Shown piece after piece: positions 5,129 through 54,811 of a stretch of DNA of 64,000 nt. The position numbers and the translations under genes are program-made. Numbering within the stretch: position 1 is the first letter of the stretch; each line of letters opens with the position of its first letter. This DNA is from Candidatus Accumulibacter cognatus. GTDB taxonomy: Bacteria > Pseudomonadota > Gammaproteobacteria > Burkholderiales > Rhodocyclaceae. The notes beneath the pieces are model-generated. The model did no database searches and was not told where the DNA came from. It saw only the letters and a program-made list of their open reading frames with translations. The DNA lies in NCBI GenBank assembly GCA_013414765.1, contig CP058708.1:1979553-2043552 (forward strand), given 5' to 3'.

Positions 5129-5396
5129 GACGGCACTCGCATTCAGGTTGGTGATTGAGACCCTCAGTTCTTGCGCGAGAAGCGTAACAGAAACTGTCGG
5201 CTGCGGCACCTTGTGTGATGAGTTTGTTGCCTGACAGTTCCCTGACATTTGTTGCCCGTCAGCCTTTGGACGGCCAATGCGTTGGTCCGCGCCGCGCTTT
5301 GGTCTATCGATATATAATGACTGACGAGTACCAAGTAAGTGTGCCAAAATACATATGGTCAGCTTGTTGGTTCCTGTATGTTCACATGAGTTGAAT

Positions 5397-5470
5397 GGCA
5401 AACGGGACGAAAGTCCCGGACGCAAAGCTGCAGGCCCTAACCCGAAGTCCGGGAGGGTGGCTGGGTTGCC
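5397..5470 (+). promoter_or_regulatory. Cyclic-di-GMP-I (GEMM) riboswitch aptamer
   Basis: All the conserved GEMM-I blocks are present in order. An outer helix pairs GGCAA (5397-5401) with TTGCC (5466-5470). A perfect hairpin CGGGAC-GAAA-GTCCCG follows, then the invariant GACGCAAAGC, then GGCCCTAA, and a second helix ending GGTGGCTGGGTTGCC that matches the GGTAGCGGGGTTACC consensus. The aptamer ends 77 nt before the ATG of the methyl-accepting protein at 5548. The interval contains a small AGTG/CACT hairpin (5519-5533) just before the GGGAGGATC ribosome site, so control may act on translation. Whether binding turns the operon on or off cannot be read from the sequence. Confidence 0.92.
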
Positions 5471-5547
5471 CTATGTTGGAACGCCTGTTCCGGCATCTGC
5501 TCCGATCCGCCGTTGCCTAGTGGTTAAATCACTCACGGGAGGATCTC

Positions 5548-6729
5548 ATGCAAGACCGATCATCAAAGATGCTTCCTGTCGGCCCCGCTCCGCTGTTCAT
5601 TGCCGCCGTTGCCGGCGGTCTGCTGGTCTGGAAGAGTGAGATACCGCTGGCCGTCGCTCTTGTATGGACACTGGCTCTGCTGGTGCTTGCCGCGGGCGCC
5701 TCTTATTGGGAGCGTCGTGCGATCCGGATCGCTGTCGACCAGTCTGCCGCCAAATACGGTCGGACCGACGTGGCACAGCCGGCCATCGCCCCCTATACGA
5801 AGAGTCTGCATCAGGTGGCTGCCGCTTCACTGGTACGCTGGGCCGAGCATATTGCGATCGCACGCCGACAAACCGAGAACGCGGGCAACGCATTGACCAG
5901 TGACTTCGCGGCCATTCTGAACCAGTTGGGTGTCATGCTCGATACCCGCGACCGTGAAGCAGCGGCCGGCGTGGTCGCGGTGATCGAAGGGGCACGTAGC
6001 GAATTGGCCTCGATGCTTGACCGTCTCAAGGACGCTTTCGATGCCCAGAAACCGATGCTCCGTGAATTCGAGAACCTGGCTGAAGTGAGCGCCGATCTCA
6101 AGCGCATGGCCAGCGGGGTTGCCGAGATCGCCAAACAGACCAATCTGCTGGCGCTCAACGCGGCGATCGAAGCAGCACGGGCCGGTGAGACCGGGCGTGG
6201 TTTTGCCGTCGTTGCCGATGAGGTGCGCAAGCTCTCGGACCAGTCGGGATCGCTTGCCAAGCAGATCGGGGATAAGGTCGAGACGGTCAACGCGGCGACT
6301 GGGTCAGCGCTGCTTTCCGCCGGCCAAATGTCACGCCAGAACGAGTCACTGATGGCCAGTTCGGACGCGACCATGGGCGCCGTACTGGAACGATTCCGCA
6401 GCGTCGTGCAAGGACTCAGCGATTCGTCGCAGCACATGGCAGAAGGCAGTCAGAGCGTCCGCGAAAAGGTCGAAGCGGTACTCGTGCATCTGCAATTCCA
6501 GGATCGCATGAGCCAGATTCTGAGCGCGGTTTGCCAGGATATCGAGCGTCTTCTGGCGCGCACACGTGCAGAAGAGGCACGCATCGAATGCGGTGAGACA
6601 CCGGAACCTTTCGACGTGCAGAAATGGGTTGCTGAACTCGAACAAACCTATACCACGCTCGAACAGCACGACACTCGGCACCCGGCTGCACAGGGACAGG
6701 TGTCGGCGAGTGAAATCACCTTTTTCTAA
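5548..6729 (+). CDS. Methyl-accepting chemotaxis protein without periplasmic sensor domain
   Basis: This 393-residue receptor-like protein has two closely spaced N-terminal membrane helices (about residues 10-30 and 33-52) with no periplasmic domain between them. A cytoplasmic signalling domain follows, containing the diagnostic hairpin tip [19 protein letters not shown]. The GGGAGGATCTC ribosome site lies directly before the ATG. It is the first gene after the c-di-GMP riboswitch and precedes cheY by 21 nt, so it probably feeds the adjacent CheA. With no ligand-binding domain outside the membrane it may sense an internal or membrane state. Receptors of this type occur in twitching and surface-sensing clusters as well as in flagellar ones. 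Confidence 0.9.
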
Positions 6730-6750
6730 CCTGGACAATGGGAGATCGAC

Positions 6751-7119
6751 ATGGGCAAGACCATTCTGGTCGTCGATGATTCCGCTTCGATGCGGCAGGT
6801 CGTCAGCATGGCGCTCAAGGGCGGCGGTTTTGAGGTGATCGAGGCCTGTGATGGCAAGGACGCGCTGGCCAAACTGATGGGGCAGAAGGTGCATCTGGTG
6901 ATCAGCGATGTCAATATGCCCAACATGGATGGCATCACCTTCGTCCGGGAAATGAAGAAGAACGCCGCCTATCGCTTCGTTCCGGTGATCATGCTGACCA
7001 CCGAAGGCAATGAAGAGAAGAAGAAGGCCGGCCAGGAGGCCGGAGCCAAGGCCTGGGTGGTCAAGCCTTTCCAGCCCCAGCAGATGCTGGCGGCGGTTTC
7101 CAGACTGTTGATGATGTGA
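6751..7119 (+). CDS. cheY: CheY-like single-domain response regulator
   Basis: A 122-residue receiver domain with the expected acid pocket (VVDDSA near residues 6-11), the phospho-acceptor in ISDVNMPNMDG, the conserved Thr in MLTTEG and the Lys in VVKPF. It has no output domain, so it acts by binding a partner after phosphorylation by CheA. It sits between the receptor gene and the STAS gene. The stop codon is one base before the GTG of the next gene, which implies coupled translation. Overall similarity is to CheY proteins that follow a receptor in betaproteobacterial che operons. Confidence 0.93.
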   Translation: MGKTILVVDDSASMRQVVSMALKGGGFEVIEACDGKDALAKLMGQKVHLVISDVNMPNMDGITFVREMKKNAAYRFVPVIMLTTEGNEEKKKAGQEAGAKAWVVKPFQPQQMLAAVSRLLMM

Positions 7120-7120
7120 A

Positions 7121-7456
7121 GTGGCGATGAGCCTGGTTACCGAGCGCAGCGGGAAAACGGCGCGGCTGACTCTGGACGGAGAACTGACCATCTATGAAGT
7201 CGCCGGAATCAAGGCCGAACTGGCGGAGGTCATGCACGGTATCGACGAAATCGAGATCGATCTGGGCGGTATTGCCGAGATCGATACGGCCGGTCTGCAA
7301 CTGATGCTGATCGCCAAACGCAATCCGGGCAAGCACGTGCGCTTCGTCAATCATCCGCCGTGCGTTCTGCGCCTGATCGATCTGGCCAATCTCGGCGGCA
7401 TGCTGGGTGATCCCCTGTTCATTTCGGCGACGGAATCGGCCAGGAATATGCCATGA
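7121..7456 (+). CDS. STAS-domain protein (anti-sigma-factor-antagonist type)
   Basis: A 111-residue STAS domain. The segment EIEIDLGGIAEIDTAGLQLM carries the usual D-T/S-A-G-L turn, although the phosphorylatable residue is Thr rather than Ser. The start is either the GTG at 7121 or the ATG at 7127. Its stop overlaps the cheA start by four bases (ATGA), the classic arrangement for translational coupling. Small STAS proteins next to cheA are found in several betaproteobacterial chemotaxis-like clusters; their partner is not known from sequence. Confidence 0.85.
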   Translation: MAMSLVTERSGKTARLTLDGELTIYEVAGIKAELAEVMHGIDEIEIDLGGIAEIDTAGLQLMLIAKRNPGKHVRFVNHPPCVLRLIDLANLGGMLGDPLFISATESARNMP

Positions 7457-9618
7457 ACGACGCTGCCAAAGACCTCGCGCAGGCACTCGGAACCTTCATG
7501 GAAGAGGCCAGGGAACTCCTCGCCGAGATGGAGTCTATCCTGCTGCGTGCAGAGGACGGCAATAGCCTGGAAGATGACCTGAATGCCCTTTTTCGCTGCG
7601 CGCATACCATCAAGGGTTCAGGCGGCCTGTTCGGTCTCGACGAGGTGGTGCGTTTCGCGCACGTCGTCGAGAACGTCCTTGATCGCCTGCGCAACGGCAA
7701 ACTGCAATTCGACAGCGATCTGATCAGTCTGCTGCTCGCATGCCAGGATCACATCGCCAACCTGATTGCCGCAATCGCCGAGGACACCGAGGTTCCGGTC
7801 GCCCGTAGCGACCAATTGCTGTCGCGCCTGCAGACCGTTCTCGGAATTGCTAGTGGTGCTGTCGTGGCGACGCCCGCTGCCGAACCGAATTCCTCCGAAG
7901 CCGGGATCGGTGCCGGCGGCGGTGGCGCGATGGGCTCCGACCACTGGCATATCTCGCTGCGTCCGGGCAGGCAGGTGTTGCAGGACGGCATGGATCCGCT
8001 AGCATTCATCAATTACCTCTCCCAGTACGGCAAGTTGCTGCATGTTGAAACGATTGTCGACACCGTGCCGGAGTTTGCCGCTGCAGACCCCGAGATCTGC
8101 TATCTGGGCTTCGAAGTGGCCCTGGCCAGCCGTGCCAGCAAGGCAGAGATCGAAGGCGTCTTCGATTTCATCCGGGAGGGCTCGCAGATCACCATCGTGC
8201 CGCCTCAAAGCCAGATTTCTGCGTACCTCGCGCTGATCGAATCCCACTATCAGGATGCCGAGCGTATCGGTGAGATGCTCGTGGCCTGCGGTTCGGTGAC
8301 CGCCAACGAATTGGCAGAGGCGCTGGCGGTACAGAAGAACCAGGAGCCGCATGCCCGTATCGGCGAGATCCTGGTCGAACAGGGCGCGGTGCCGCCGCAG
8401 GTTGTCAAGGCGGCCGTGGATCAGCAGAAGCGAGTCGAGGAAAAGCGCAGCGGCGAAGCCCGGATCGTCAAGGTTCCTTCCGATCGGCTCGACGCACTGA
8501 TCGACAGGGTCGGCGAACTGGTCATCGCCGGGGTCGGGACACATTTGCAGATCAGTCGTATCCAGCGACCTGACATTCAGGAATCGGCGGAAGTGCTGCT
8601 GTCTCTCGTCCAGGACATTCGCGACATGACCCTGCGCTTGCGCATGGTCGCCATCGGCGAGGTATTCTCCCGCTTTCCGCGCGTCGTTCGCGACGTTTCC
8701 AGGGAACTGGGCAAGGATATCGAGTTGCGGGTCCGGGGCGCCGAATCCGAGCTCGACAAGTCGATGGTCGACAAGATCGGCGACCCCTTGATGCATCTGG
8801 TGCGCAACTCGATCGACCATGGCATAGAGCCGGCCGAAACGCGTATGGCGCGTGGCAAGCCCGCACGCGGCACGGTCGAACTGCGTGCCTATCACGAGTC
8901 CGGCAGCATCAATATCGAAGTCAGTGACGATGGCGGCGGCCTCGATCGTGATCGCATCCTGAGGAAGGCGATCGAGAATGGCATGGTCGCTCCGGATGCC
9001 CATCTTTCCGATCAGGAGGTCTATCGGCTGATTCTCGCACCCGGGTTTTCGACGGCAGCAAAAGTGACCAGCCTCTCCGGCCGCGGGGTGGGGATGGATG
9101 TCGTGCGCAGCAATATCGAAGCCTTGCGCGGCACGCTCGACATCGAGTCGGTGCCAGGCCAAGGCACGACCATGCGCCTTTGTCTGCCGTTGACGCTGGC
9201 GATCATCGACGGCTTTCACGTCGGCGTCGGCAGTTCGCACTTCATCATCCCGCTCGACATGGTCGTCGAGTGCATCGAACTACCGCCGGATGTCGGCGAT
9301 CGGGGATACCTAGAACTGCGTGAGCAGGTGCTGCCCTTCATTCGCCTGCGCGAACTCTTCGATGAACAGGGGCCACGGCACCCTCGACCGCGCGTCATCG
9401 TCGTCCGTTACGGCAGCCGGCAGGCGGGTCTGGTCGTCGATCGCATTCATGGCAAGTGCCAGACGGTGATCAAGCCGCTCGGCCCCTTGTTTGCCGAAGT
9501 GCCGGCAGTGTCGGGCTGCACGATTATCGGCAACGGCGAGGTCGGCATGATCCTCGATGTGCAGGCACTGGTACGGCTTTGCGCAGACGCGGGCCACGGC
9601 AAGCATGCGAAGAATTGA
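7453..9618 (+). CDS. cheA: Chemotaxis histidine kinase CheA with internal MshEN-like repeats
   Basis: The 721-residue protein is a CheA-type kinase. It has an N-terminal HPt domain with phospho-acceptor His51 in AHTIKGSGGLFG and a P2-like region at about 165-250 (HISLRPGRQVLQDGMDPLAF). The dimerisation helices (about 338-410) and catalytic domain follow, with N-box HLVRNSIDHG (448-457), G1 SDDGGG and G2 GRGVGMDVV. A CheW-like regulatory domain ends it. Between P2 and the dimerisation domain lie two tandem 24-residue motifs (271-294 and 302-325) that fit the MshEN pattern. The gene overlaps the STAS gene by 4 nt and is followed 90 nt later by a second receptor gene. It would phosphorylate CheY and CheB of this cluster. 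Confidence 0.95.
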   Translation: MNDAAKDLAQALGTFMEEARELLAEMESILLRAEDGNSLEDDLNALFRCAHTIKGSGGLFGLDEVVRFAHVVENVLDRLRNGKLQFDSDLISLLLACQDHIANLIAAIAEDTEVPVARSDQLLSRLQTVLGIASGAVVATPAAEPNSSEAGIGAGGGGAMGSDHWHISLRPGRQVLQDGMDPLAFINYLSQYGKLLHVETIVDTVPEFAAADPEICYLGFEVALASRASKAEIEGVFDFIREGSQITIVPPQSQISAYLALIESHYQDAERIGEMLVACGSVTANELAEALAVQKNQEPHARIGEILVEQGAVPPQVVKAAVDQQKRVEEKRSGEARIVKVPSDRLDALIDRVGELVIAGVGTHLQISRIQRPDIQESAEVLLSLVQDIRDMTLRLRMVAIGEVFSRFPRVVRDVSRELGKDIELRVRGAESELDKSMVDKIGDPLMHLVRNSIDHGIEPAETRMARGKPARGTVELRAYHESGSINIEVSDDGGGLDRDRILRKAIENGMVAPDAHLSDQEVYRLILAPGFSTAAKVTSLSGRGVGMDVVRSNIEALRGTLDIESVPGQGTTMRLCLPLTLAIIDGFHVGVGSSHFIIPLDMVVECIELPPDVGDRGYLELREQVLPFIRLRELFDEQGPRHPRPRVIVVRYGSRQAGLVVDRIHGKCQTVIKPLGPLFAEVPAVSGCTIIGNGEVGMILDVQALVRLCADAGHGKHAKN
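8263..8427 (+). other. Tandem MshEN-like motifs inside CheA
   Basis: CheA residues 271-294 (RIGEMLVACGSVTANELAEA then LAVQ) and 302-325 (RIGEILVEQGAVPPQVVKAA then VDQQ) follow the pattern R-[LI]-G-x2-L-x3-G-x9-[LAV]-x3-Q. That pattern defines the two motifs of MshEN domains, which bind c-di-GMP in type II/IV secretion ATPases such as MshE. Known MshEN domains use two such motifs joined by a short linker, and here the linker is 7 residues. The match is read directly; binding is an inference. Confidence 0.7.
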
Positions 9619-9708
9619 TCGACGGCACTAGCACGGCTCGTTGCCGGCGGCAGCAAACGCCTGCGGGCATCATTTCTTGTCCAATTATTCAGAATGTCGA
9701 GGTGAAAG

Positions 9709-11589
9709 ATGAACTGGTTACGGTCGATGAAGGTGAGCACGCGCAACCTGCTCTGGGGAGGTCTCACGGCGATTGGCCTGTTGCTTTTCTGCATGGTTTC
9801 GCTGATTTCGATCCACGACAACATGCTCGAGGACCGCAAGCAGCGGATCAAGAGCCTGGTCGAGGCAGGGGTCGGTGTCCTTGCTCATTATCATCAACTA
9901 TCGACCACTGGCAAAATCGCCGACAAGGAGGCCAAGACCGCCGCACTCGATGCCCTGCGCTACATGCGCTATGAAGGGGGCAACTACCTGTTCGGCTTCG
10001 ACCCTGAAGGAAACTATTACCTGAGCCCAGCCAGTCCCGACTTTGAGGGAACCAACAAGATCGACCTCAAGGATGCCAATGGGAAATTTCTGATCCGGGA
10101 ACTGATCAGCGTCGCCAAGGCTGGAGGCGGCTATGTCGCATACGACTTCCCCAAACCGGGCACGCAGACCGCTTCGCCGAAGATTGGTCATGCGGTGCTG
10201 TTTGCGCCATGGAATCTGGTGATCGGCACCGGCATCTACATCGATGATGTAGATGTCGTCTTCCGCCGTGTCCTGATTCAGTTGGTATCAATCTCCCTTG
10301 CCTTGCTGGCGCTATTGACGGCCATGGGTTGGGCGATTTCACGTTCGATTTCTGGCCCGCTCAATTCGGTTGTCGAAGTTTCCGGCCGCATGGCGGCAGG
10401 TGACTTCGACTTCAAGCTCGACACGACCGGGCGAGATGAAGCCGGGGCCGTGTTTCGTGCCGTGATGATGGTCAAGGAGGCGGTGCACGCGATGATCAGC
10501 GATGCCGGCGCGCTGTCGACCGCAGTGGCGAAAGGCCGGCTGGAAACACGTGTCGATGCGGCCAGGCACCAGGGCGAATATCGCAACATCATCGAAGGCC
10601 TTAACTGCACGATGGACGCAGTGGTGGAACCGATCAACGACGTCAAGCGGGTCATGGCGGCGGTTGAACGGGGCGATCTCGGCCAGAGCATCGACGCAGA
10701 ATATCAGGGTGACTTTGGCGCCCTGCAGGCGAGCGTAAATAATACGGTGGCCAAACTGTCGGCGACGATCGCGAAGGTAAACACCTCGGCTGGCGAGATC
10801 TCGAATGCCTCGACGCAGGTATCGGCCACTTCACAGCTTCTTTCGCAAGCGACCTCCGAGCAGGCGTCAAGCCTCGAACAGACGACCGCGGCGATGGAGC
10901 AGATGTCGGCGTCGATTGCGCAGAACACCGACAATGCCAAGACCACCGACTCAATCGCCCGCCAATCGGCGGCAGACGCGCTGGCTGGCGGCGAAGCCGT
11001 TCGTTCGACGGTCGCGGCGATGAAATCGATTGCCGGCAAGATCTCGATCATTGACGACATTGCCTACCGAACCGATCTGCTGGCGCTGAATGCGGCGATC
11101 GAAGCGGCACGGGCCGGCGAACACGGCAAGGGTTTTGCCGTCGTCGCAGCCGAGGTCAGGAAACTGGCCGAACGCAGCCAGATCGCTGCGCAGGAGATTG
11201 GCGAACTGGCCAGCAGCAGCGTCGAAACCGCCGAGCGTGCCGGCAGCCTGTTCGAAACCATGTTGCCATCGATTCGCAAGACGGCTGATCTGGTGGGCGA
11301 GATCACCGCCGCATCGGAAGAACAGACGACCGGCGCAGACCAGATCAGTCAGGCAATGGCGCAGTTGAACACCGTCACGCAGCAGAACGCCGCGACCGCC
11401 GAAGAACTCTCGGCCACGGCTGAAGAGATGAACGCCCAGGCCGAAAACCTCAACGAGTTGATGGCGCAGTTCAAGCTTGCCGGCAACAACCAGGTCATGC
11501 CGGCGCGCCCGGGCCGGATCGCCAGACCGGGCAAGGCAAAACGCGAGTCTGCGGCAAATCACTCGCTGAAAGACTACGAACGATTCTGA
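9709..11589 (+). CDS. Methyl-accepting chemotaxis protein with single Cache sensor
   Basis: A 626-residue receptor. The first membrane helix (about residues 14-35) is followed by a periplasmic sCache_2-type domain (about 36-185) with the typical [20 protein letters not shown] segment. A second helix (about 188-210), a HAMP region and a signalling domain follow, the latter with tip [20 protein letters not shown]. The tip has RTD where most receptors have QTN. The C-terminal tail is basic and has no CheR-docking pentapeptide. The ATG follows GAGGTGAAAG. Cache domains of this kind usually bind small organic acids; the ligand is not predictable here. The gene lies between cheA and cheW in the same direction. 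Confidence 0.93.
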
Positions 11590-11599
11590 AGGGCATGCC

Positions 11600-12145
11600 A
11601 TGAACCCAGAACCATTGGCAGCCGCCCGGCAGCACGTGGCCAGCAAGGCGGCTCCGGATGTCGGCGACACTTTGGCGCTGTATCTAGCGTTCCGCCTGGC
11701 CGATGACGTATATGCCATCGATATCCTGCGCATCCGGGAAATCATCGAGTACAGCGTGCCCACCGGCGTGCCGATGATGCCGCGCACGGTTCGTGGGGTC
11801 ATCAACCTGCGCGGCTCGGTGGTGCCGGTGATTGACCTTGCGGTTCGCTTCGGTCGCACGGCCACCGGCGTGGGAAAACGCACCTGCATCGTCATCGTCG
11901 AAACTGAACATGCGGGGTCGCTCTACACCCTGGGACTGATCGTCGATGGCGTCAATGCAGTCATGGAGATTTCAGCCGAGAGCATCGAACCTTCTCCCGC
12001 TTTCGGTACGCGTGTAAACGCCGACTTCATCGCCGGAATGGCACGCGTCAATGGCCGCTTCGTGATCATTCTCGACATCGCACGCGTACTGTCGATCGAC
12101 GAAATGGTGTCGATCACCCCGCCGACGATGATTGCAAACCTGTAA
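11600..12145 (+). CDS. cheW: Chemotaxis adaptor CheW
   Basis: A 181-residue CheW domain protein that would link the receptors to CheA. Diagnostic segments are the [21 protein letters not shown] start, the [19 protein letters not shown] core and [13 protein letters not shown]. An N-terminal stretch of about 25 residues precedes the domain. It starts 10 nt after the receptor gene and ends just before cheB, so it sits inside the operon. Confidence 0.93.
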
Positions 12146-12168
12146 CCCATCTGAAACGGGAGGCGGTG

Positions 12169-13242
12169 ATGGCACGAGAAATCAAGGTCATGGTCGTCGA
12201 TGACTCGGCCGTGGTACGCCGGGTCATGAGCACCATCCTGGAACGCGACCCCGGAATCCGTGTCATCGCAACGGCCCATGATCCGATCTTCGCGATCGAA
12301 AAAATGCGCCGTGACTGGCCTGACGTGCTGACGCTCGACATCGAAATGCCACGCATGGACGGCATTACCTTTCTTGGCCAACTGATGGCGGAACGACCCA
12401 CGCCAGTGGTGATCTGCTCATCGCTGACCACCGCCGGGGCGGAAACGACCCTGCAGGCCCTGGCAGCCGGGGCGGTTGCGATCATCAGCAAGCCCGGCCT
12501 CGGCGTCGGAAGTTTTCTTGAAGATTCGAGCGACAATCTGATCGCGGCCATCAAGGCCGCTGCACGTGCCAACATGAGAGCCGTGCAGCATGGCGTCCGC
12601 ACGTCAGTGCGCAGTCCGGCAACGCCGCGTCTAGCGATGGTACAGACGACCGAGCGCCTGGTAGCCATAGGCACGTCCACCGGCGGAACGGTTGCTCTGG
12701 AAGCCCTGCTGACAGAATTGCCGCGAGTCTCACCAGGAATCGTCATCGTCCAGCACATGCCGGAGATGTATACCGCTGCTTTTGCCGCGCGCCTGGATGG
12801 CCTCTGTGAAATCTCGGTGCAGGAAGCGAGGAACGGGCAACGTGTCCTGCCCGGTCTGGCACTGATTGCGCCCGGCGGAAAGCACATGCAACTGACGCGC
12901 AGCGGCGCGCAATACCTGGTCGAGGTAAAGGATGGACCACCGGTCAATCGCCATCGCCCGTCGGTCGATGTGCTGTTTCGATCGGTTGCCAAATATGCCG
13001 GCAAAAATGCCATGGGTGTAATCATGACCGGTATGGGCGATGACGGCGCACGTGGACTGAAGGAGATGCACGATGCCGGATCTTATACGCTGGCACAGGA
13101 CGAGGCGACTTGTATCGTTTACGGCATGCCAAGGGAAGCGGTCAAACGGGGCGCGGTCGATCGCAGCTTGCCGCTTGCTGCGCTGGCAACGGCGATCATG
13201 AGCGGGCCTCCCGCTGCGCGAGCCGGGATGGCTGGGTTGTAG
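12169..13242 (+). CDS. cheB: Protein-glutamate methylesterase CheB
   Basis: Removes methyl groups from receptors or deamidates them. The N-terminal receiver has acidic residues at 11-12 and phospho-acceptor Asp57 ([12 protein letters not shown]). The C-terminal esterase has the triad Ser170 (GTSTGG), His196 (VQHMP) and Asp292 (TGMGDDG). The spacings of 26 and 96 residues equal those of the classical enzyme. The ATG at 12169 is preferred over the GTG at 12166 because GGGAGG lies 5-8 nt before it. No cheR lies in the window. The gene closes the che operon, 55 nt before the pseudouridine synthase gene. Confidence 0.94.
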
Positions 13243-13297
13243 GAAGTGATCCACTTCTGACGTAAACTAAGCGGTCGAACCAACGGAAGGCCACGCC

Positions 13298-14581
13298 ATG
13301 CCCCCCTCCACTCTGAAGCTGCCTAACAAGAAGCCTGTCGCTGTCGTCGGCGACACCCGGGCAGCCACCCGCAAACCGATCCGTGGCGGCTCCCAGACAG
13401 CAAAGCACACCGCGCGGCGTACCAACAGCCAATCGACAGCACCGGTTGTCCCAGGCGGCAAGCCCGGCCAGCGAACCAGTCATCCAGCGCATTTCCACAG
13501 CGAATTCCCGGGGGCAGCGGACAGCCCGATCAAGCAGCTTGCAGCCGCCCTGCCAAAGAGACAGGAAAGCGCAGTGCCCGCCCCGGAACCTCGCAGCATA
13601 GCTACCGACCGCCAGGCACCTGGCCCGGCCCGGCCCGGCCAGCAGGCGAAGAAGACCTATCCTGAACGTGGCATTGCCCGCAGTACCGGCGCACGCGCCT
13701 TTCCCCCGGCGCCGCTGCGCGCCCGCCATGACGCCGTGCGACCGGCGCTCGGCGCGCCGGTCGTTGCCGAACAAGCACCGATAAAACGACCGGCAGAGGC
13801 GCCCACTGCCGCGCCGGCAGTGACCTCCAGCACGCCGCATGGCTTGGCAAAGGAGTCGCCACGGCTGGCAAAACGGGTCAGCGAAATCGCCGCGTGCTCC
13901 CGCCGCGAAGCCGATGAATGGATCGAGAACGGCTGGGTCAGCGTAGATGGCGAGGTCATCACCCGCCTCGGGGCACGCGTCAACCCCAAAGCAAGGATCA
14001 AGATCAAGGATGCCGCCGACAAACACATCAGCGAAAGCGTCACCATCCTGTTCAACAAGCCGAGCCACCCGGTGGCTGCCGGGGCCGCAGGCGAGCGCGA
14101 TGATGCCGTTGCCCTGATCCGTCTCGACAACCACTGGGCAGAAGGCGGCACCATGTTCCGCTTCCAGGCCAGGCATCTGCGCGGCCTGGCGCTGGCCGGC
14201 AAACTCGATGCCGACGAGGGCGGCCTGCTGGTGTTCACTCAGGAAGGTAGTGTCGCACGCCGCCTGACGGGGAGGGATGCAAGACTCGAGAAGGAATACC
14301 ATGTCCATGTCGAAGGCGAATTGTCGTCGGTCGGCCTGGAGCGGCTCAGGCATGGCCTGTCACTGGACAAGGTCAAACTGCTGCGCGCACAGGTCTCGTG
14401 GTTGCACGAGCAAAAACTGCGTTTCGTTCTGCACGAGAGCAGAAAGCGGCAGATTCAGAGCATGTGCGAACAGGTTGGCTTGCGCGTTACCGAGATCAAA
14501 CGCGTGCGCATCGGCGGCGTTTCGCTCGGCAAGCTCGCTGTCGGGCAATGGCGCTATCTGCGCGCCGATGAGCGCTTCTGA
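13298..14581 (+). CDS. RluF-like pseudouridine synthase with long N-terminal extension
   Basis: The last 240 residues are an S4 RNA-binding domain (KRVSEIAACSRREADEWIENGWV, read in two parts around residue 195) followed by an RsuA/RluB/E/F-type pseudouridine synthase domain. The catalytic Asp is at residue 304 in GKLDADEGGLL, and the motif SRKRQIQSMCEQVGL is the RluF-type RNA-contact segment. The first 185 residues are proline-, alanine- and arginine-rich with no domain, and look disordered and basic. Such tails occur in betaproteobacterial members. Substrate (23S rRNA or tRNA) cannot be set from sequence alone. The gene follows cheB and precedes the HDOD gene by 14 nt. Confidence 0.85.
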   Translation: MPPSTLKLPNKKPVAVVGDTRAATRKPIRGGSQTAKHTARRTNSQSTAPVVPGGKPGQRTSHPAHFHSEFPGAADSPIKQLAAALPKRQESAVPAPEPRSIATDRQAPGPARPGQQAKKTYPERGIARSTGARAFPPAPLRARHDAVRPALGAPVVAEQAPIKRPAEAPTAAPAVTSSTPHGLAKESPRLAKRVSEIAACSRREADEWIENGWVSVDGEVITRLGARVNPKARIKIKDAADKHISESVTILFNKPSHPVAAGAAGERDDAVALIRLDNHWAEGGTMFRFQARHLRGLALAGKLDADEGGLLVFTQEGSVARRLTGRDARLEKEYHVHVEGELSSVGLERLRHGLSLDKVKLLRAQVSWLHEQKLRFVLHESRKRQIQSMCEQVGLRVTEIKRVRIGGVSLGKLAVGQWRYLRADERF

Positions 14582-14595
14582 AATAGACCCAGCCG

Positions 14596-15447
14596 ATGCC
14601 CGATAATCCCTCGCCACAGGATCTCGAAGGCTGGCTGGCCTTCATCAGCAGAGCCGAATTGCCCATCCTGCGCCAGACGGTGCGCCACCTCGACGAAGCG
14701 CGACAGCAAGCCGACCAGATCAGCGGCCGCGACATCACTGAAATCGTGCTGCAGGATCCGCTGTTGGCCATCCGCGTGCTGGCCTATATTCAGGAGGTCA
14801 GCCACGGTCGCCTGCACAGCGACATCACGAACATTGCCAGTGCGGTAATGATGCTTGGCATCGATCCGTTCTTCCGGAAGTTTGAACAGCCGCTCACCCT
14901 CGAAACAATGCTGCGCGGTCAGCGGCAAGCCCTGCTGGGCGTCCTGCAGGTGATCCTGCGAATGCAGCGCGCAGCGCGCTATGCACATGACTGGGCTTTT
15001 GCGCGGCATGACATGAATGTTGAGGAAGTCGCTCTTGCCGCGCTGCTGCACGACCTTGCAGAGAGTCTGCTGTGGTGTTTTGCCCCGGACCGCGCGATCG
15101 AGATTCGCTCCCGGCTGCAGGCTGACTGCCGGCTGAACGACACCGATGTCCAGCGGGAAGTGCTCGGGATTGCGCTGGCCGATCTGCAATTGGCACTCTG
15201 TAGAGCCTGGCACCTGCCCGAACTGCTGACGACCTTGATGGATAGCGGCAATGCCGCTCTGTCCAGGGTTCAGAACGTGCAACTAGCGGTCAATCTTGCC
15301 CGCCACTCGACCGAGGGCTGGAATCATCCGGCGATCCCGGACGACCTCAACGCCGTCCAGAGTCTGTTGCACATCAGTCGCGAGAAGCTGCTCAACCGCC
15401 TGCAACTGCCGACGGAAGTCCTGCCCAGGTTTCTCGGCGAGGGCTAG
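14596..15447 (+). CDS. HDOD-domain signalling protein
   Basis: A 283-residue protein with an HDOD domain, a relative of the HD phosphohydrolase fold that usually lacks enzyme activity and acts in signalling. Visible markers are ELPILRQTVRHL, the DITEIVLQDPLLAIRVL helix pair, and ALLHDLAESLLWCFAP in place of the HD metal centre. It starts 14 nt after the pseudouridine synthase gene, so the two are probably co-transcribed. The partner is unknown. The 255 nt after it hold no recognisable gene. Confidence 0.85.
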   Translation: MPDNPSPQDLEGWLAFISRAELPILRQTVRHLDEARQQADQISGRDITEIVLQDPLLAIRVLAYIQEVSHGRLHSDITNIASAVMMLGIDPFFRKFEQPLTLETMLRGQRQALLGVLQVILRMQRAARYAHDWAFARHDMNVEEVALAALLHDLAESLLWCFAPDRAIEIRSRLQADCRLNDTDVQREVLGIALADLQLALCRAWHLPELLTTLMDSGNAALSRVQNVQLAVNLARHSTEGWNHPAIPDDLNAVQSLLHISREKLLNRLQLPTEVLPRFLGEG

Positions 15448-46346: not shown

Positions 46347-53486
<7,140 letters not shown>

Positions 53487-53650
53487 ATGGGCGCTCGGTC
53501 TATCGAGGTTGACAGACCAGAATCAGGCAAAGATGTGAGTAATATCTTCCATAAAGACAAATAATCGGCTTTCCGGCATCAAACCATGTAGGTCATTGTA
53601 CACAATACACATATTGGTCTTGCTCTTGATCTTGGCGGTACGCTGTCGAT

Positions 53651-54811
53651 TCAGTCGGTGGTCTTGACCAGAACCGTGGCCAGATTGGCCTTCAGCGCTT
53701 CGTCGCTGTCCCTGTAACGGTCGGCGATGGCGCGGAACTCGTCGCCGCAAGCCAGAAAGGAGTCCACCACATCCGGGTCGAAACGCCGGCCGCGCTCCGC
53801 CAGGATGATGGCCCGGGCCTGGGCATGAGGCATGGGCGGCTTGTAGACGCGCCGGGTGATCAGCGCGTCGAAGACATCGGCCAGCGCCATCAGACGAGCC
53901 GAGAAGGGAATCGCGTCCCCGGCCAGTCCTTCGGGATAGCCGCCACCATCCCATCGCTCGTGGTGGTAATGTGCGATTTCCTTTGCCAGCACCAGAAATT
54001 CGACCGGATGTTCGGCATCGCGCTCCGCCTGCTCGATGGCCTCGCTGCCGAGCTTGGTGTGGGTCTTCATGATGACCCACTCCTCCGGGCTGAGCTTGCC
54101 GGGCTTGAGCAGGATGTGGTCGGGAATGCCGACCTTGCCGATGTCGTGCAGCGGTGCCGACTTGGCCAGGAGTTGAATGTTGTGGTCGGTCAGGAAGGCA
54201 GCAAAGCGCGGATGGCCTCGCAAGCCCATGGCCAGAATCCGCACGTACTCCTGGGTGCGACGCAGATGGTTGCCGGTCTCCGGATCGCGCGTTTCCGCCA
54301 ACCGCGCCAAGGCGTGAATGCTGATGTCCTGGATCAGCTGGTTCTCGGCCATGCGCCGGGCTATCTCGGTTTCGAGAAAGGTATTCTGATCGCGCAGCCA
54401 GTCGCGCGCCCGTTTCAGTTCCAGTTGGGTATGGACCCGGGCCAGTACGATGGCAGGTCGCAGGGGTTTGGTGATGTAATCGAGAGCCCCGAGTTCCAAA
54501 CCGTATTGTTCGTTGATGGCCGTATCCAGCGCCGTCACGAAAATGACCGGAATATCGCGCGTTCGCGGGTCTTCGCGCAGGTGGGCGAAAACGACGTAGC
54601 CGTCCATGTCCGGCATCATGACATCGAGCAGAATCAGGTCCGGTTTCGGATCCGAGGCTGCGATCCGTAGGGCGCTTTGCCCCGAGTTCGCCGCCCGGAC
54701 CCGATAGGTTGATTGCAGGAGTTCACCCAAAATCGTGAGATTTTCCGGTGTGTCGTCAACAATCAGAAGGGTCGCTTTCTCTCCATCCAGCGACAAGGTT
54801 TTCGAGTTCAC
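53651..54811 (-). CDS. HD-GYP response regulator (RpfG-like c-di-GMP phosphodiesterase)
   Basis: A 386-residue protein. The N-terminal receiver has acceptor Asp in LILLDVMMPDMDGYV and Lys in YITKPL. The C-terminal HD-GYP domain has the metal-binding HDIGKVGIPDHILLKPGKLS and the HHERWDGGGYPEGLAGD signature. It would hydrolyse c-di-GMP when phosphorylated. It lies 164 nt upstream of the giant kinase gene on the same strand and is a likely partner of its HPt domain. The start codon is GTG. Confidence 0.93.
   Translation of the reverse strand: MNSKTLSLDGEKATLLIVDDTPENLTILGELLQSTYRVRAANSGQSALRIAASDPKPDLILLDVMMPDMDGYVVFAHLREDPRTRDIPVIFVTALDTAINEQYGLELGALDYITKPLRPAIVLARVHTQLELKRARDWLRDQNTFLETEIARRMAENQLIQDISIHALARLAETRDPETGNHLRRTQEYVRILAMGLRGHPRFAAFLTDHNIQLLAKSAPLHDIGKVGIPDHILLKPGKLSPEEWVIMKTHTKLGSEAIEQAERDAEHPVEFLVLAKEIAHYHHERWDGGGYPEGLAGDAIPFSARLMALADVFDALITRRVYKPPMPHAQARAIILAERGRRFDPDVVDSFLACGDEFRAIADRYRDSDEALKANLATVLVKTTD

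Follow-up and report, generated by a model that had tools for sequence, protein, structure and literature searches.

The DNA analysed here, referred to as the window, is a stretch of 64,000 nt from the genome of Candidatus Accumulibacter cognatus (contig CP058708.1). It carries a chemosensory gene cluster that is preceded by a riboswitch aptamer for cyclic di-GMP (c-di-GMP) and encodes a CheA histidine kinase with a predicted c-di-GMP-receptor-like module of the MshEN_N type. The aptamer, a c-di-GMP-I (GEMM-I) riboswitch on the plus strand (5387..5473), matches RF01051 with 66.8 bits against a gathering score of 35 (E 6.7e-11) and is the sole Rfam match above the gathering score in the window; the GEMM-I aptamer placed in front of the cluster by the initial annotation (5397-5470) lies inside this match. 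Between the aptamer and the first start codon, inspection of the leader delimits a spacer or putative expression platform of 74 nt (5474..5547). The first gene encodes an MCPsignal chemoreceptor (5548..6729; PF00015, 8e-29) and is followed, all on the plus strand, by the receiver gene cheY (6751..7119; PF00072, 4.4e-28), a gene for a STAS-domain protein (7121..7456 in the list of open reading frames; PF13466, 5e-15), cheA (7453..9618), whose start overlaps the 3' end of the STAS gene at 7453-7456, a chemoreceptor gene with sCache_2 and HAMP domains (9709..11589), cheW (11600..12145; PF01584, 6.3e-36) and cheB (12166..13242; PF01339, 2.8e-65, and PF00072). Pfam searches of the window proteins confirmed this mcp-cheY-STAS-cheA-mcp-cheW-cheB order, which had been proposed from the sequence.

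The 721-aa CheA protein has the complete histidine kinase domain set in Pfam, with Hpt at residues 11-104, H-kinase_dim (P3) at 337-391, HATPase_c at 445-581 and CheW at 588-708; together with the NCBIfam profile NF053729 and a full-length model, these give the order P1 (Hpt), P2-like, MshEN_N, P3, P4, P5. The two tandem MshEN-type motifs that the initial annotation had recognized at residues 271-325 (8263..8427, plus strand) are matched over exactly this range by NF053729 ("c-di-GMP_motif, MshE-related"; 40.7 bits, cut-off 38, E 1.5e-10), with motif I at 271-294, a linker of 7 aa and motif II at 302-325. The PF05157 match that had also been proposed was found neither in the window CheA at E≤1 nor in any of 25 subfamily members, perhaps because CheA holds the N-terminal half-domain only, and the module was tested by NF053729, a PDB sequence search and a fold comparison in place of PF05157. 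Searched alone against the PDB, the 93-aa segment matched Thermus thermophilus PilF (6f8l; E 4.2e-12) and, below 1e-4, two PilB sequences; among the weaker of its 26 matches, PilF and MshE are mixed with unrelated proteins. A search with a profile built for this segment from 81 sequences gave 17 entries up to E 10, of which the first 14 are PilF, PilB and MshE proteins (1.1e-20 to 0.01; 6f8l at 1.1e-20, PilB at about 1e-8, MshE 5htl at 4.6e-6) and the last three are unrelated (0.36-0.83).

An AlphaFold2 model of the segment (mean pLDDT 77.5) agreed with the MshEN-like fold anticipated in the initial annotation. Its top eight Foldseek neighbours in the PDB are all MshE or PilF complexes with c-di-GMP, superposed with probability 1.00 and an rmsd of 0.8-1.3 Å over 56-60 columns, at E-values that are weak (0.14-0.55, none at 0.001) for a domain of about 55 residues. 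The full-length model (mean pLDDT 85.3, with a pTM of 0.50 that leaves the domain arrangement uncertain) has an alpha/beta domain at residues 165-249, the position of P2, then helices at 266-278, 284-295, 303-309 and 315-336, and a P3 helix at 343-370. The riboswitch and MshEN module matches are both far above chance, and profile, sequence and model evidence together indicate that the window CheA carries a true MshEN_N-type module, an isolated half-domain between the P2-like domain and P3.

The MshEN motif has been described as 24 residues in tandem, RLGxx(L/V/I)(L/V/I)xxG(L/V/I)(L/V/I)xxxxLxxxLxxQ (PMC5013675). The window copy does not match this printed motif strictly, although it passes the NF053729 cut-off. 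When mapped by eye onto 14 residues named in that paper, it is identical at ten (R9, G11, G18, L25, L29, Q32, R38, G40, G47 and Q61), with I, I, V and V in place of L10, L39, L54 and L58, so that most contact residues are kept. Among the 81 nearest sequences (the window and 80 named loci), R1, G3, L6, G10, E16, L21 and Q24 of motif I and G3, A19 and Q24 of motif II are present in all 81, while position 1 of motif II is most commonly P (45 sequences; R in 10, K in 3) and position 10 is G in 34. In an alignment of 70 full-length sequences, R271, G273, L276, G280, E286, L291, Q294, G304, A320 and Q325 are invariant. A broader set of 118 module-bearing CheAs was taken from the tree described below and comprises the window, 76 of the 80 named loci and 41 others, some rows being identical copies. 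In this set, G11 is found in 118, G18 in 117, Q32 in 116, G40 in 116 and Q61 in 117, the single gaps coming from a cut segment (L166) and a short one that is hard to align (L168). The motif II R/K is kept in the window, in L040 (Candidatus Accumulibacter contiguus SBR_L), in L041 and in L043-L046, and not in L042. In these alignments, nearly all sequences retain the polar and backbone contacts, the Arg that stacks on the second guanine is lost in most of the family but kept in the clade of the window, and the window copy ranks among the more complete of the 118.

Of 61 relative genomes, 23, that of the window included, have a full-length match to this CheA (query from residue 15 or earlier to 707 or later). 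NF053729 matches 23 of the 25 aligned subfamily members at E≤0.01; by eye, the MshEN motifs were not seen in L031 and L032. A wider scan of genome contigs confirmed at least 495 relatives, and the best 80 of these all carry the module, as the initial annotation had expected of close orthologues, a frequency that is biased by a query that itself contained the module. Among the matches listed, the closest named relative of the window CheA is L040, with 97% identity over the query. In a class survey based on an even draw of 276 genomes, a single match spanning P2, the module and P3 was present, among the matches listed, in at least 20 genomes including that of the window; by profile, the module is present in 18 of the other 19 and absent from one (L164). 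Two shorter matches, L165 and L166, also match the module profile, L167 does so weakly (E 3.5e-8; 23.3 bits, below the 25-bit threshold for the tree) and L169-L175 gave no module-profile match in this survey. Many of the surveyed genomes (e.g., G112, G127 and G302) match the P2 or P3 flanks alone and leave the module stretch unmatched, as would be expected if the module had been inserted into an ordinary CheA plan. Carriers of the module include Azonexus, Dechloromonas, Thauera, Rhodoferax, Methylobacter and Pseudomonas straminea, among other taxa, and in the alignments it separates P2 from P3 in a CheA subfamily found in beta- and gammaproteobacteria. L168 (from G280), a distant CheA, has at the same place a more compact MshEN-like pair whose linker is very short, which suggests that further fusion variants exist.

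In a quick tree of 134 CheAs, which does not include L041, the window and L040 join L042-L046 (from Sterolibacterium, Thauera, Rhodocyclales, Sulfuritalea and a metagenome-assembled betaproteobacterium) with support of 98-100. The other Accumulibacter CheAs of the tree form a separate clade. One of its members, L146, also comes from the genome of the window, which makes the window copy a second and divergent MshEN-CheA, for which lateral gain would be the simplest reading of the tree. A single origin of the module was considered and is not established, as the tree has six label changes, four of them forced by starred branches, and carries long-branch warnings. The same genome also contains L144 (G000:C1:4930000-4940000), a CheA paralogue matched in two pieces (45% and 56%), one with an internal TAG, which is apparently decaying; from P2 to P3 it has the same score as the intact L146, so that the duplication may be recent.

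With stricter filters, RF01051 is present in 37 of the 61 relative genomes. Only two of them, the genome of the window and G019, have it a short distance 5' of a CheA belonging to this family (in G019, aptamer at 97403-97489 and cheA at 93182-95344, both on the minus strand), and contig breaks in draft genomes could hide other cases. Contig 58 of G019 (L145) and L040 are apparently one record, which makes the pairing a matter of two genomes and not three. DNA of the window and L040 is collinear from 5502 to 14666 at 91%, and the cheY product is 100% identical. The aptamer (5393-5470) is identical to that of L040/L145 at 77 of 78 bases (98.7%, one mismatch), while 5471-5501 and everything upstream of 5393 cannot be aligned. 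We read this pattern as an aptamer kept with the cluster by selection, with chance retention in two close relatives also possible. The genome of L041, whose CheA is 81% identical to that of the window, has no RF01051 match, but its contig starts inside cheA and is uninformative on the pairing; its best match to the first chemoreceptor of the window is 33% over 146 residues only. Four of the six genomes of L041-L046 contain, between them, six RF01051 matches, on contigs other than those with cheA. The combination of riboswitch and MshEN-CheA is a small and possibly recent variant of two close relatives. The suggestion that c-di-GMP acts at two levels here holds for the co-occurrence of aptamer and module, but is confined to two closely related genomes; likewise, the survey of homologues finds the insertion to be widespread and an upstream RF01051 only in the window genome and one close relative.

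The three other RF01051 sites of the host genome lie near type IV pilin genes (PilW included), a gene for an RTX/serralysin-like protein and a deaminase gene. Among other c-di-GMP-I riboswitches of the genus (L140, L141, L187, L189-L191 and L193), L140 has type IV pilin genes close by and the rest precede very long frames of 1135-1311 codons, the one at L141 being RTX/serralysin-like by Pfam. The window aptamer itself keeps GG at aligned columns 11-12, where position 20 of GEMM-I would fall.

The explanation that probably accounts best for the locus as a whole, given the aptamer, homology, fold, contact residues and module position observed here, is that this extra chemosensory cluster encodes a c-di-GMP-receptor CheA and has the riboswitch as an additional input on its expression. 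c-di-GMP would bind the helical MshEN_N module; isolated MshEN_N has been reported to bind c-di-GMP with a KD of 0.35 µM (PMC5013675). In the model, the last helix of the module (315-336) nearly runs into the first P3 helix (343-370), and binding could alter how P1/P2 are placed against the P3-P4 core, or how freely they move, and hence the kinase output. The GEMM-I riboswitch found in the leader here and in the close relative would provide a second, slower c-di-GMP input on expression of the cluster. Binding and its affinity, the sign of both effects and the driving of the whole cluster from this leader are all predicted. A more far-reaching proposal, which we regard as possible without calling it probable, is that c-di-GMP directly gates an array kinase through a P3-proximal MshEN_N while the riboswitch sets the dose of the array, a two-speed loop with one ligand, and that the relatives form an uncharacterised c-di-GMP-responsive CheA subfamily of beta- and gammaproteobacteria. 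CheA has been described as a kinase without a sensor domain of its own (PMC10782961); a built-in receptor beside the dimerisation domain would, if this proposal is true, couple the messenger of the sessile-to-motile decision to chemosensory signalling without an adaptor. The CheA subfamily is the more important finding, and its recurrence in many genera makes the module open to test in culturable strains. The riboswitch pairing would be a natural example in which one ligand may act on both the amount and the activity of a signalling protein.

Several observations weigh against this explanation, some concerning the module and others the leader. Besides the weak Foldseek E-values and the uncertain domain arrangement of the full-length model, the leucines on the Gua2 side are I/V/V in the window, the linker ranges from 6 to 21 aa across the 81-sequence set compared to 5 in Vibrio cholerae MshE, and in the set of 118 R9 is R in 104, less strict than among the 81 nearest. 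Moreover, most of the family has an eroded motif II, with R38 being R in 13 and K in 5, G47 being G in 46 and L54 being V in 111 and L in none. The variable linker and the eroded motif would fit an MshEN relic that has lost tight c-di-GMP binding and serves between P2 and P3 as structural spacer or as a site of protein contact, an alternative that we consider unlikely while giving it serious weight. The motif II Arg and second Gly are gone in most relatives, R9 is missing in 14 of the 118, the window score is barely above the NF053729 cut-off, and XpsE is reported in PMC5013675 to have lost binding through such changes. A relic is harder to reconcile with the retention of both Gln (ribose and phosphate contacts) and both Gly (backbone contacts to the guanine edge) in 116-118 of 118 sequences while the linker varies, one of the misses being a cut segment. 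It is equally at odds with the invariance of R271, G273, L276, G280, L291, Q294, G304 and Q325 in the 70 nearest full-length sequences and with the window copy, which also keeps R38 and G47, and a c-di-GMP-receptor CheA remains our preferred reading of the module.

For the leader, no intrinsic-terminator-like site was found in 5474-5547, and a Shine-Dalgarno hairpin seen in the window was dropped as a candidate switch platform when it proved not to be kept in L040. The expression platform is therefore not recognisable by inspection, and whether the riboswitch would be an ON or OFF switch cannot be read from the leader, because highly homologous aptamers can act either way according to the title of PMC9262584. 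In addition, a covariance model built from 21 aptamers of relative genomes and run on the window and the 80 named loci, 71 of which have at least 2.2 kb upstream of cheA, found only the window and L040 above chance; three weak matches in other named loci (16.4, 13.4 and 12.3 bits; E 0.2-3) are attributed to chance. The aptamer could accordingly have no functional tie to the che cluster and little effect, having been left there by a rearrangement. This would explain why similarity between the window and L040/L145 breaks right at the aptamer, with 31 and 110 nt after it that cannot be aligned, why the pairing occurs in two genomes only and why neither a terminator nor a conserved Shine-Dalgarno hairpin was found. 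We nevertheless judge such an accident to be quite improbable, as the aptamer lies on the strand of the cluster, 74 nt 5' of the start codon in the window, is still joined to the cluster in the relative despite a different left flank and is more conserved (98.7%) than the cluster DNA (about 91%). It is very improbable that 3',3'-cGAMP or some other cyclic dinucleotide is the ligand of the receptor or of the RNA: a GEMM-I aptamer with G20A is reported to bind cGAMP (PMC6274999) and MshEN binds it weakly (PMC5013675), but that MshEN affinity is low (KD 3.3e-4 M), and the window aptamer retains the GG described above.

The host is an Accumulibacter-type betaproteobacterium with a genome of 5.17 Mb in one contig. 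By domain counts (38 GGDEF matches), its capacity for c-di-GMP synthesis appears ample; two flagellin matches were also found. Neither CheR nor CheD was found by Pfam among the cluster proteins scanned, and all six CheR matches of the genome lie outside the window. As divergent neighbour, the riboswitch-che cluster has a FapA-like gene in the window; on contig 58 of G019 (L145:13593-14855) this position is taken by a gene for an FHA-EAL protein, a candidate c-di-GMP phosphodiesterase by Pfam. An HDOD-domain protein gene (14596-15444) follows a pseudouridine synthase gene 3' of the che cluster, within the stretch collinear with G019. Farther away, a hybrid sensor kinase of 2379 aa with many PAS and GAF domains is encoded on the minus strand (46350-54811), adjoined by a gene for a receiver-HD_5 protein.

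The initial annotation regarded a CheA with a built-in MshEN module as an arrangement not yet described. This does not hold, since the MshEN fusions given by Wang et al. (2016; PMC5013675, section 12) include "chemotaxis protein kinase CheA" and the module is shared by members of a CheA subfamily. In a term search of the main text of a CheA domain survey (PMC10782961), MshEN, T2SSE, di-GMP and PilZ were absent, which is in line with the absent PF05157 match; in Leptospira, one MshEN protein has been reported, a GspE (PMC12943098). In literature titles and abstract openings, a sample that lies mostly outside subscription journals, neither a CheA that binds c-di-GMP nor the riboswitch pairing was found as the subject of a study other than that of Wang et al. 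What may be new is the pairing of MshEN-CheA with a riboswitch, the fusion itself having been in print since 2016.

Compared to the MshEN of the MshE/PilB/PilF ATPases (V. cholerae MshE, 5htl; T. thermophilus PilF, 6f8l and 8pfa), the window module shares the two 24-residue motifs, the predicted fold and the R/G/G/Q positions. It differs in being the N-terminal half-domain only, with a linker of 7 instead of 5 and L-to-I/V changes at four contacts, and in lying inside a histidine kinase instead of at the N-terminus of an ATPase. The cluster resembles Stage 1/2 F7 clusters (PMC7184735) in having a gene for a STAS (anti-sigma-factor-antagonist) protein beside cheY and cheA and an extra mcp; the gene order is different and CheR and CheD are missing among the scanned proteins of the window cluster. 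The MshEN-CheA fusions of Wang et al. combine MshEN with CheA as the window does, and are given there as a domain combination; the section cited makes no link to a riboswitch, unlike the window. Like other GEMM-I riboswitches (RF01051), the locus has a complete aptamer that scores above threshold, here in front of a chemosensory cluster; it differs from them in that its platform is not recognisable and in that the cluster itself encodes a c-di-GMP-receptor-like module.

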